Shown in pieces: positions 23,075-25,526 of a stretch of DNA of 36,563 bases; the stretch's first letter is position 1, and each line of letters begins with the position of its first letter. The translations under genes and the position numbers were made by a program. Where the stretch lies: assembly GCF_000235885.1 (NCBI RefSeq), contig NZ_JH379411.1, forward strand, positions 1,755 to 38,317. Reading direction: 5' to 3'. This stretch comes from Leyella stercorea DSM 18206. GTDB taxonomy: Bacteria; Bacteroidota; Bacteroidia; Bacteroidales; Bacteroidaceae. Under the pieces are notes generated by a model. The model made no database searches. It was not told the origin of the DNA and saw only the letters and a list, made by a program, of their open reading frames with translations.

Positions 23075-23131
23075 GCAGCAACAAAGTCTGGCACAGTTTT
23101 TTTTGCCAAGACGATATTTGCACGATTTGCA

Positions 23132-23194
23132 CGCTCATAACCCGCGAAAAACCGACAACGGATTTTGTTTTCCATTTTTCGCGAGTTTTGAGCG
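23132..23194. repeat. Imperfect 20-bp inverted repeat
   Basis: The arms 23132-23151 and 23175-23194 match in 18 of 20 positions (outer CGCTCA/TGAGCG, inner CGCGAAAAA/TTTTTCGCG), with a 23-nt loop. No T-run follows, so it is not a simple terminator of the GH97 gene 58 nt upstream. Confidence 0.75.
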
Positions 23195-23298
23195 TACAAG
23201 CGTAAACAAATGATTCAGAAGCCTTTGCGGCGTTCTGCGCAAAAGTGTGCAATTTCCGTTTCGAGCCAACCAAACTTATCGTGAGACTTTTATATGTA

Positions 23299-23437
23299 AA
23301 AGCATAGGTTTTACCGAATAAAGTCTCAAGAGTTACCAAATAAAGTCTCACGAAAAGTTTGTAAAATCTCACGAAAAGCGGTGCAAAATCTATCGTTTTA
23401 CATCGAAAAGTCTCAAGTTCTCTGTTTTTCAGTCTGC
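23299..23437. repeat. Degenerate 22-nt periodic repeat
   Basis: An AAAGTCTCA-like core recurs at 23321, 23343, 23364, 23386 (AAATCTA) and 23408, and weakly at 23430 (CAGTCTGC) and 23299, giving spacings of 22, 21, 22, 22 and 22. Several cores are followed by CGAAAAG or AAGAG. The copies are too diverged to be recent duplications. Confidence 0.65.
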
Positions 23438-23542: not shown

Positions 23543-23574
23543 TTTGCAAAAATCATAATTTTATTATACCTTTG
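23543..23574 (+). promoter_or_regulatory. Consensus promoter of the nuclease-SLOG gene
   Basis: TTTG (23543-23546), a 20-nt spacer and TACCTTTG (23567-23574) match the Bacteroidetes consensus. The transcript should start near 23581, leaving a leader of about 115 nt that contains a GCATAG...CTATGC pair (about 23589 and 23639). Confidence 0.75.
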
Positions 23575-23695: not shown

Positions 23696-25318
23696 ATGAA
23701 TTCAGCTACTAGTTTAAACACAAATGAAAGTAATGCTAAAGGGAAAACATATTCTCCGGAACATACTCTTTATCATTATGCCGCCATTGATTATGTTAAT
23801 GGCGAATTATGTTCAATTGAAGATATCACCACAGAATTCAGAAAACTCCACAAGTTTTACTGCCTTTCTTGTGGTGAAGAAATGGTTGCCAACCTAAAGG
23901 ACGATTGTCATAGACGCCATTTCAAACATAAGAACAAGACCGAGTGTAGCAATGAAACCTATTTGCATAACTTGGCAAAGAAAAAGATTGCAAGACATTT
24001 CTTGGAGTCTGAACATTTTTATGTCTCTTATAATCTAATAGAGAGTTGCCCAAAACACCCGAACTGTAAATACTCATCTTATTATTCTTGTGTTCGTAGT
24101 GAGCGTAAAAGGCAAGTTGATTTGAAACAGTATTACCAATATTGCGAGATAGAAAAACAAGTCAAAGACAGCAATGGCAACATTTATGTTGCTGATATTT
24201 GCTTGATAAGCAACAGACCCAAAGTGCCACCTATGCTTATTGAGATATTCGTGTCGCATGCCTGCTCGGAAGAGAAAAAGAATTCAGGGCTTTGGATTAT
24301 GGAAGTTCCAATAACTTCTGAAGATGATATAGAAAAGTTCTGTAAAACCGACTCGTACGACGAAGAAAACGGTCCTGCTTTTGAATTATTCAACATCTCA
24401 AAAGAAAAGAAAGCAGAATTGGTAAACGATCAAGTCTTGAGGTATATACATTTTCCAAACAAGAACTCTGAAATCAAGCGAATATCTTGCAAAGAGACGA
24501 ATGTTATACAATCTCAAGAATCTGATATAGAATTGAATATATTGAAAGATTGTTACGATTGTTATCCTGAAGATTATAACGAATTGATTAAAGCTGTTGA
24601 CTTCTTACTTTATGATAAAAAGAACACTCAAAATGAAGTAACCAATTGTGAAGATTGCGTACATTATAACCCTTATATGGGCCCCCAAGAGGCTGACAAT
24701 CACCGCTGTGATTTGGACTTTTTGAGAAGAAGACCCGAAGGAGCATGCACGGATTTTCATAGGAAAGTGGGCGAGAATCACTCTTTGATATCAAGCAAAA
24801 TAAAGTTAGAATACATTAAAGGATCAAAGCCCAAAGTATATTTGTTAGCAATCATTGGCCCGCAGAAATTCTATAATACACAGTTGATAGAAGAAGTCTG
24901 TAGCAAACGACTATCCGAGTTGAGCAATCGCAATCTTGCTTTGGGTGCTCAAAAAATCGGGGCTTTAGATTTTGTAGCAAGTGTGTTAAATTATGCCGAC
25001 TACAACAACATCCCCTTTAATATATTTAATGTCGATTGGAATACAAAAGGAAAATCAGCCGGTTATCAAAGTAACGATGAAGTGGTAGCCTGTGCTGATG
25101 AACTGATTGTGTTCAACGATTCTAATGATAAGTTAACGCAAGACATAATACAAAAGGCAAAAAGCAAAAACATACCAATAAAGATTGTTGACCTAGCACA
25201 GCTCGCACATGACATGAATATATGTCCGAAATGTGGAAGTACGTTAGTTAAAAGAGTCGGACGCTATGGAGAATTTTGGGGATGCAGCAATTATCCTGAA
25301 TGTAAATATATAGGTTAG
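23696..25318 (+). CDS. Four-module protein: CoiA-like nuclease, Cys cluster, SLOG/YspA-like domain, topoisomerase zinc finger
   Basis: This 540-aa cytoplasmic protein combines modules that are usually separate. Residues about 53-200 resemble CoiA-like PD-(D/E)xK nucleases: a zinc-ribbon-like part (YCLSCGEE, Cys56/Cys59; HFKHKN and Cys84), then NETYLHNLAKKKIARHF (Glu87), ADICLI (Asp167) and IEIFVSH (Glu183). A Cys cluster follows (Cys318, Cys321, Cys338, Cys351). Residues about 378-500 look like a SLOG/YspA (DUF2493-type) Rossmann domain: LGAQKIGALDFVA, then DWNTKGKSAGYQSNDEV and CADELIVFND. The last 33 residues are a topoisomerase-type C4 zinc finger (Cys510, Cys513, Cys530, Cys536). Family knowledge: SLOG domains bind nucleotides or nucleotide-derived signals and occur in several immune systems. 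A ligand-gated nuclease is inferred, not shown. The gene is AT-rich compared with its neighbours, has its own promoter and terminator, and looks horizontally acquired. Confidence 0.75.
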   Translation: MNSATSLNTNESNAKGKTYSPEHTLYHYAAIDYVNGELCSIEDITTEFRKLHKFYCLSCGEEMVANLKDDCHRRHFKHKNKTECSNETYLHNLAKKKIARHFLESEHFYVSYNLIESCPKHPNCKYSSYYSCVRSERKRQVDLKQYYQYCEIEKQVKDSNGNIYVADICLISNRPKVPPMLIEIFVSHACSEEKKNSGLWIMEVPITSEDDIEKFCKTDSYDEENGPAFELFNISKEKKAELVNDQVLRYIHFPNKNSEIKRISCKETNVIQSQESDIELNILKDCYDCYPEDYNELIKAVDFLLYDKKNTQNEVTNCEDCVHYNPYMGPQEADNHRCDLDFLRRRPEGACTDFHRKVGENHSLISSKIKLEYIKGSKPKVYLLAIIGPQKFYNTQLIEEVCSKRLSELSNRNLALGAQKIGALDFVASVLNYADYNNIPFNIFNVDWNTKGKSAGYQSNDEVVACADELIVFNDSNDKLTQDIIQKAKSKNIPIKIVDLAQLAHDMNICPKCGSTLVKRVGRYGEFWGCSNYPECKYIG

Positions 25319-25394: not shown

Positions 25395-25440
25395 AGGCTG
25401 ATAGATATCGCCTCGAAAAGCGACATCTATCAGCCTTTAT
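25395..25440 (+). terminator. Intrinsic terminator of the nuclease-SLOG gene
   Basis: A stem of about 16 bp (25395-25411 with 25420-25436, one mismatch) with an 8-nt loop is followed by TTTATT. It begins 77 nt after the stop codon, with no ORF between. Confidence 0.8.
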
Positions 25441-25526
25441 TCTGCTTATAATGTGAGTATTACGAGGATGCAGACAGATATGATGGATTATTTCTGTAGA
25501 CATATATTTCTGTCAGACTTGGTGCT

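Follow-up and report, generated by a model that had tools for sequence, protein, structure and literature searches.

ThsA of the Thoeris system joins an N-terminal Sir2 effector to a C-terminal SLOG domain, and in the CARF nucleases Can2 and Card1, a single chain carries both a Rossmann-like sensor and a PD-(D/E)xK nuclease. Firmicutes use CoiA as well as DprA, the latter from the SLOG superfamily, in natural transformation; DprA binds ssDNA through its Rossmann-type domain. A CoiA-domain system is among the validated anti-phage systems obtained by selection from the E. coli pangenome (PMC9519451). Phages frequently encode SLOG-domain proteins, whose proposed role is the destruction of ADP-ribose signals in host immunity; where phages fuse SLOG domains to nucleic-acid enzymes, regulation by ADP-ribose derivatives was proposed (PMC9503650).

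Architecture of the gene

The window, i.e., the whole stretch of 36,563 nucleotides from Leyella stercorea DSM 18206 analysed here, contains a gene for a 540-aa protein which may sense as well as cut, resembling in its logic Can2, Card1 and ThsA. Length and named motifs of its ORF at 23696-25318 are the same as in an earlier note on this DNA. The following parts were assigned:

23696..25318, + strand: coding sequence, CoiA-like nuclease core, SLOG and Top1 zinc ribbon, 540 aa (ORF list, homologues)
23861..23947, + strand: N-terminal zinc knuckle in the CoiA_N region, residues 56-84 (C56, C59, H78, C84; CoiA_N matches, alignment)
23951..24310, + strand: PD-(D/E)xK-like core, residues 86-205 (E87, D167, E183, H188, K194; alignment, structure model)
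24647..24748, + strand: Cys cluster, residues 318-351 (C318, C321, C338, C351), probable zinc site (alignment)
24830..25204, + strand: SLOG-fold domain with altered pocket motifs, residues 379-503 (PHROG, Pfam on the homologue L005, predicted fold)
25220..25312, + strand: topoisomerase-I-type C4 zinc ribbon, residues 509-539 (PF01396)

The placement of the effector N-terminally and of SLOG C-terminally is shared with ThsA, from which the window protein differs by a nuclease-like core instead of Sir2 (Pfam yielded no Sir2 match within the protein) and by its altered pocket. Both parts of Can2/Card1 are structurally matched, but the window protein has SLOG, not CARF, and the domain order in Can2/Card1 is presumably reversed. 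The E. coli system shares the CoiA domain, being likened here by description and not by sequence, and SLOG is absent from its text (PMC9519451). SLOG-less CoiA-like proteins of ~360 aa, some of them annotated as "competence protein CoiA family protein", possess the same zinc knuckle, core and Cys cluster, lack both SLOG and Top1 ribbon, and are mostly low in GC too (more than 5 points under their flanks in 35/41 loci).

The C-terminal Top1 zinc ribbon (Zn_ribbon_Top1, PF01396, residues 509-539; 1.5e-14, 53.9 bits versus a cut-off of 32) is the only Pfam domain over cut-off in the window protein; of the 53 proteins aligned below, 2 match it. None of the PDB sequence searches, run with the whole protein and with profiles of SLOG and of the family, returned more than weak or chance rows, topoisomerase ribbons reaching a best E of 0.23. 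The gene occurs as a single copy in the host genome, where the sole further match is a zinc ribbon. Taken together, conservation, predicted folds and Pfam support the presence of nuclease-like core, SLOG fold and zinc ribbon as read in the earlier note.

Distribution and horizontal transfer

The 301 genomes of the family (own included) contain 44 with a match at E <= 1e-5, many via the ribbon alone; five besides the own genome encode the CoiA-like part and SLOG in one frame, without the ribbon. At genus level, 31 of 398 genomes match at E <= 1e-10, many of the genomes being incomplete (17 matches among the 175 that are at least 90% complete), and the whole architecture is present in 2 (own genome and G653). 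Sixteen of 344 order genomes match; besides the own genome, the matches listed carry either the CoiA-like part alone or SLOG alone, and no further clear CoiA-SLOG fusion is among them.

A profile scan of named genomes retrieved 58 loci, 11 of which (L070-L080, all Bacteroidales by title) extend over SLOG, the remaining 47 matching no further than residue 331. The latter belong mostly to Bacteroidota, in addition to Cyanobacteria, Aeromonas, Stutzerimonas and others. Six of the 11 SLOG-covering loci encode proteins also found by the family and genus scans, and L071/L073 as well as L077/L080 are pairs of near-copies. L070 (Prevotellaceae UBA3627) is the sole one of the 11 with a ribbon, its protein being identical to that of L032 in G653. 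These 11 and the window make up the 12 fusion loci considered below, all of which (12/12) have open frames of 466-540 aa. L213, considered as a broken fusion, was rejected as such and represents a free-standing YAcAr protein. Relatives in viral contigs were not found. A literature search for CoiA-SLOG fusions, covering mostly papers outside subscription journals, yielded no relevant paper among those listed.

The GC content of the gene is 0.362 versus 0.535 in the rest of the window, and lies 8-24 points below that of the flanks in 12/12 fusion loci. Sporadic distribution and low GC therefore point to a horizontally moving accessory gene. The transfer suggested in the earlier note is thus supported by foreign composition together with the full architecture in 2 of the 398 genus genomes, a frequency that does not fit a core gene at a conserved syntenic place. 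The interval between the GH97 and lipoprotein genes, for which the same note had proposed a comparison across related genomes, was compared by way of gene homologues. No CoiA-SLOG gene was found in the regions of 20 UGDH homologues, 14 GH97 homologues and 12 distant relatives of the lipoprotein that flanks the gene (several of these regions being shortened by contig ends). No exact empty site is demonstrable, because the local gene order of the window is not kept across the lipoprotein, UGDH and GH97 homologue regions; nearest in gene order is L129, with a distant GH97 paralogue (27%) beside a lipoprotein homologue.

Transcription signals and gene neighbourhood

Signals on both sides of the gene agree with the own promoter and terminator proposed earlier:

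23543..23574, + strand: match to the Bacteroides-type promoter TTTG-N20-TAnnTTTG, ~120 bp 5' of the start codon (consensus match, predicted)
25396..25441, + strand: terminator-like hairpin (25396-25435) followed by a TTTATT tail (folding)

TTTG-N20-TAnnTTTG is the promoter consensus of Bacteroides. The window contains three matches to it versus 0.29 expected (1/100 shuffles reach as many), the expectation being computed for the whole window and the present stretch being AT-rich. A scan for sigma-70 promoters remained at chance level (10 versus 7.6 expected, sd 2.9). In case of the terminator, the 155-nt stretch folds with a z of -3.64, equalled by 0/200 shuffles; a simple terminator scan did not flag the hairpin at 25396-25435. 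The gene is likely to form a single-gene transcription unit. The intergenic region 5' of the gene (23127-23420) is densely filled with imperfect direct and inverted repeats, including 33-nt arms at 23127-23199 (82% complementary) and AAAGTCTCA-type repeats at 23311-23418.

By eye, most genes near the 12 fusion genes have a housekeeping look. The numbers of PADLOC models matched were 81 for 106 fusion-locus neighbours, 3 for 106 control genes and 158 for 114 neighbours of SLOG-less loci, whereby the models overlap heavily, the figures are not gene counts and, where examined, few genes account for the matches. The scan covered 106/109 fusion-set, 106/137 control and 114/127 SLOG-less genes, small doubtful ORFs and a 95-gene GH97 control being left out. 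One clear defence operon, AbiEii with AbiEi near L078, was found in the 12 loci, 25 of the 81 matched models being listed, AbiEi among them; of ten hand-picked fusion neighbours, this AbiEii alone is clear, the rest being generic-looking helicases/ATPases, weak, without a match, or PDC-S27, which was also matched in the control set. Enrichment of defence genes around the fusion genes, as would be expected from the defence role proposed earlier, is therefore weak. Close to the fusion gene of L074 (4346-7173) are two ATPases, one with weak similarity to PDC-S06 and one of PDC-S27 type, and, by eye, a macro-domain fragment. Two small genes (L080, 8386-9517) lie directly upstream of the L080 fusion gene, one of them weakly PDC-M66A and, by eye, HipA-like; the near-twin L077 has different, doubtful ORFs at the corresponding place, which marks this site as variable.

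In case of the SLOG-less relatives, AbiE models are each matched by two neighbour genes. On a plasmid of Enterobacter hormaechei (L200, 6953-9975), the ends of a CoiA-like gene and of a gene for an ATP-dependent helicase share a few bases, the two genes possibly constituting a nuclease-helicase system, and a type I restriction endonuclease gene lies beyond an insertion sequence. An Acinetobacter plasmid carries the CoiA-like, SLOG-less gene after genes for an HNH endonuclease and a methyltransferase, a third plasmid relative follows a DUF3427 gene, and near a fourth, an endonuclease gene lies two genes off. In 4/18 loci of Top1-ribbon proteins (many of the NERD type), a CoiA-like frame is found within ~1.5 kb of the ribbon protein (L039, 1195-2298, - strand; L048, 1-1161, - strand; L049, 1741-3156, + strand; L051, 1-1416, - strand); the frames of L048 and L049 pass, by eye, from the CoiA-like part into a UvrD-type helicase.

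Nuclease-like core and zinc sites

The nuclease part was aligned for 53 proteins, i.e., the window protein and 52 of the 58 profile-scan loci. C56, C59, H78, C84, H91, C118, C132, E153, D167, E183, K194, C318, C321 and C351 are invariant (53/53), and E87 (51), H188 (52) and C338 (52) are nearly so; H78, C84, E87 and H91 sit inside the locus-retrieval patterns, which biases their counts, the other conserved residues lying outside. Glu87, Asp167 and Glu183, named earlier as nuclease residues, are thus conserved in 51, 53 and 53 of the aligned rows, and the Cys318/321/338/351 cluster in 53, 53, 52 and 53. The further conserved Cys pair 118/132 is absent from the earlier note, and Lys194 is newly added here as the probable third catalytic residue, judged from its conservation. 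It is located 11 residues past Glu183 and not at the E-x-K position, which suggests a migrated-Lys variant of PD-(D/E)xK.

CoiA_N (PF25164) is matched by residues 47-85 of the window protein (2e-4, below the Pfam cut-off) and in 52/53 rows at E <= 0.01. CoiA_nuc (PF06054), which together with CoiA_N makes up CoiA proper, is matched in 0/53 rows at E <= 0.01 and by nothing in the host genome at E <= 1. Because CoiA_N is matched but CoiA_nuc never, the family is termed CoiA-like and not CoiA. The CoiA_N matches would agree with a competence or recombination protein that represents a fused version of CoiA and DprA functions. Considering the missing CoiA_nuc, a SLOG domain of the YAcAr type (see below) and the sporadic, foreign-looking occurrence of the gene, such a role appears highly improbable.

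The model of the nuclease domain has a mean pLDDT of 92.4. Foldseek with this model gave no match at E <= 0.001. In VIA-align, the top row is a restriction-endonuclease-like protein (Z 6.2), followed by Bax1, another restriction-endonuclease-domain protein, TT1808, I-Bth0305I and VRR_NUC, with Can2, Card1 and NucC ranking lower. The structural matches are thus mostly restriction-endonuclease-like folds. A nuclease fold is accordingly predicted, more weakly than that of SLOG. With its invariant D, E and K and with Z values that alone prove no fold, the core is likely a PD-(D/E)xK-like nuclease, and the window protein presumably cuts DNA.

SLOG domain and its altered pocket

Pfam makes no SLOG call, YAcAr included, on the window protein. 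Residues 377-505 match the phage family PHROG 289, which bears the label "GTP-binding domain" (2e-9), and YAcAr (PF10686) is matched by the fused homologue L005 (2.5e-8, 34.1 bits versus a cut-off of 28.2), at 17.5 bits by L003, and by 5/53 rows at E <= 0.01. The model of the full protein has a mean pLDDT of 82.1. Residues 379-503 reach structural Z values of 11.4 with a molybdenum-cofactor binding protein, 11.0 with YpsA of B. subtilis (128 residues aligned, 3.4 A) and 10.5 with TM1055. ThsA (9.4), the BcThsA SLOG with 3'cADPR (9.2) and the CARF domains of Cam1 and Card1 (7.9-9.5) rank below YpsA and TM1055. A SLOG fold is hence clearly predicted; the sequence link to YAcAr via L005 matters, because POFUT1, of unrelated fold, also attains a Z of 10.1.

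Free-standing YAcAr proteins occur in phages and Bacteroidales and share their domain length with the fused SLOGs, as well as the segments W-x-x-Y-G, AG, N-x-E-M and ADALIAFWDG-like with most fused copies. The window protein and L070 retain W-x-[KR]-Y-G and the ADALIAFWDG-like segment less well. Pocket motifs were compared between 12 free-standing loci (four phage and eight Bacteroidales, including the near-copies L195/L196) and ten divergent fused copies; L073 and L080, near-copies with the same picture, are not counted among the ten. In the fused set, the G-x-A-x-G-x-D loop is broken in 10/10 (an Asp at or near the place of the loop Asp being present in the window, L070, L075 and L076), the Arg of A-G-x-x-R-N is lost in 10/10 with the Asn kept in 8, and the first-loop Arg (GxR) is lost in 9/10 and retained in L075. 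In the free-standing set, by contrast, loop and RN motif are intact in 12/12 and the first Arg in 11/11 loci covering that position. We take the altered residues (GxR, GxAxGxD, RN) to be contacts of the ligand pocket. The notion that the SLOG part senses a nucleotide is therefore not supported, and the usual YAcAr ligand is unlikely to be the activating cue.

L194 and L210, free-standing proteins of Bacteroidales, are very similar to the fused SLOGs outside the pocket motifs; this similarity suggests that the fused SLOG was captured from such free-standing stock and that the pocket was lost later. Free-standing YAcAr was not found in the host genome and is present in 5/121 family genomes; 133 phage records were matched, and each of the 40 listed aligns with the SLOG part.

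In two divergent pairs, which had all three segments computable and enough change, dN/dS amounts to 0.14-0.17 for the nuclease, 0.19-0.21 for SLOG (dS near 1.9) and 0.41-0.44 for the middle segment. The near-copy pair L071/L073 has a SLOG dN/dS of 1.77, derived from 8 changes. The fused SLOG domain thus seems to be constrained despite its broken pocket.

Broken motifs, together with the Top1 ribbon added in the window protein and L070, might also reflect a SLOG that has lost ligand sensing and serves with the ribbon as a DNA-binding or oligomerising module, in the manner of the ssDNA-binding domain of DprA. The protein would then be a nuclease of the Mrr or McrA kind, in which foreign or modified DNA is recognised directly and no messenger takes part. 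The CoiA-like genes near ribbon proteins in 4/18 loci agree with this, since both parts may act together elsewhere. We consider this explanation rather unlikely, given the apparent constraint on the SLOG domain and the YAcAr segments retained by most fused copies, less so by those of the window and L070.

The nuclease tree groups the window with L070 (support 98/96) and the other ten fusion rows with L098 (99/99); it needs three changes, but a topology that unites all 12 fusion rows and L098 in a single clade is not rejected (p-AU 0.375). L098 (9986-11053) lies within the SLOG clade without having a SLOG, and no remnant is present in the next 450 bases. This absence, the broken SLOG motifs and the low frequency of the gene could be taken to indicate an accessory gene in decay, either selfish or without function, that brings its host no benefit. 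Open frames in 12/12 loci, invariant catalytic residues and dN/dS values of 0.14-0.44 in two pairs make such decay very unlikely.

Proposed function and implications

As best explanation, we propose a horizontally moving stand-alone effector gene, i.e., a nuclease directed against phages or plasmids and kept under control by an altered SLOG, and give this reading about an even chance. The PD-(D/E)xK-like core would cleave DNA, zinc sites and ribbon would keep it on the DNA, and the SLOG domain would hold the nuclease off until an infection cue arrives. This cue would be either a partner (DNA or protein) or some ligand that differs from the usual YAcAr one; as a result, phage or plasmid DNA would be destroyed, or the infected cell would kill itself. 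The proposal is favoured by D167/E183/K194 in 53/53 rows, the nuclease model, the SLOG fold, low dN/dS, low GC and the occurrence in 2/398 genomes, furthermore by the defence-type neighbours of SLOG-less relatives and by the CoiA-domain anti-phage system of E. coli (PMC9519451). Against it stand the broken pocket, the lack of any PADLOC 2.0.0 model matching the window protein at E <= 10, the housekeeping-like neighbours and the lack of viral-contig relatives, as well as the nuclease Z of only 6.2, the missing Foldseek match and the SLOG dN/dS of L071/L073.

Because the pseudo-SLOG resembles free-standing proteins and its pocket is disarmed in every divergent copy, one may also speculate that the fused SLOG is an integrated decoy, whose mixed assembly with a phage SLOG counter-defence protein releases the nuclease. 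We regard this as distinctly unlikely; if true, the decoy would be a guard sensing the virus's own anti-immune enzyme.

In case of the proposed SLOG-controlled effector, the union of nuclease and SLOG in a single polypeptide would represent a minimal sensor-effector defence gene unmatched by PADLOC 2.0.0. The pocket loss across divergent copies raises the question whether an effector can be under SLOG control when the canonical nucleotide site is missing and, if so, through which cue. The window gene would then be a host-side counterpart, with an altered pocket, of the phage fusions between SLOG domains and nucleic-acid enzymes.
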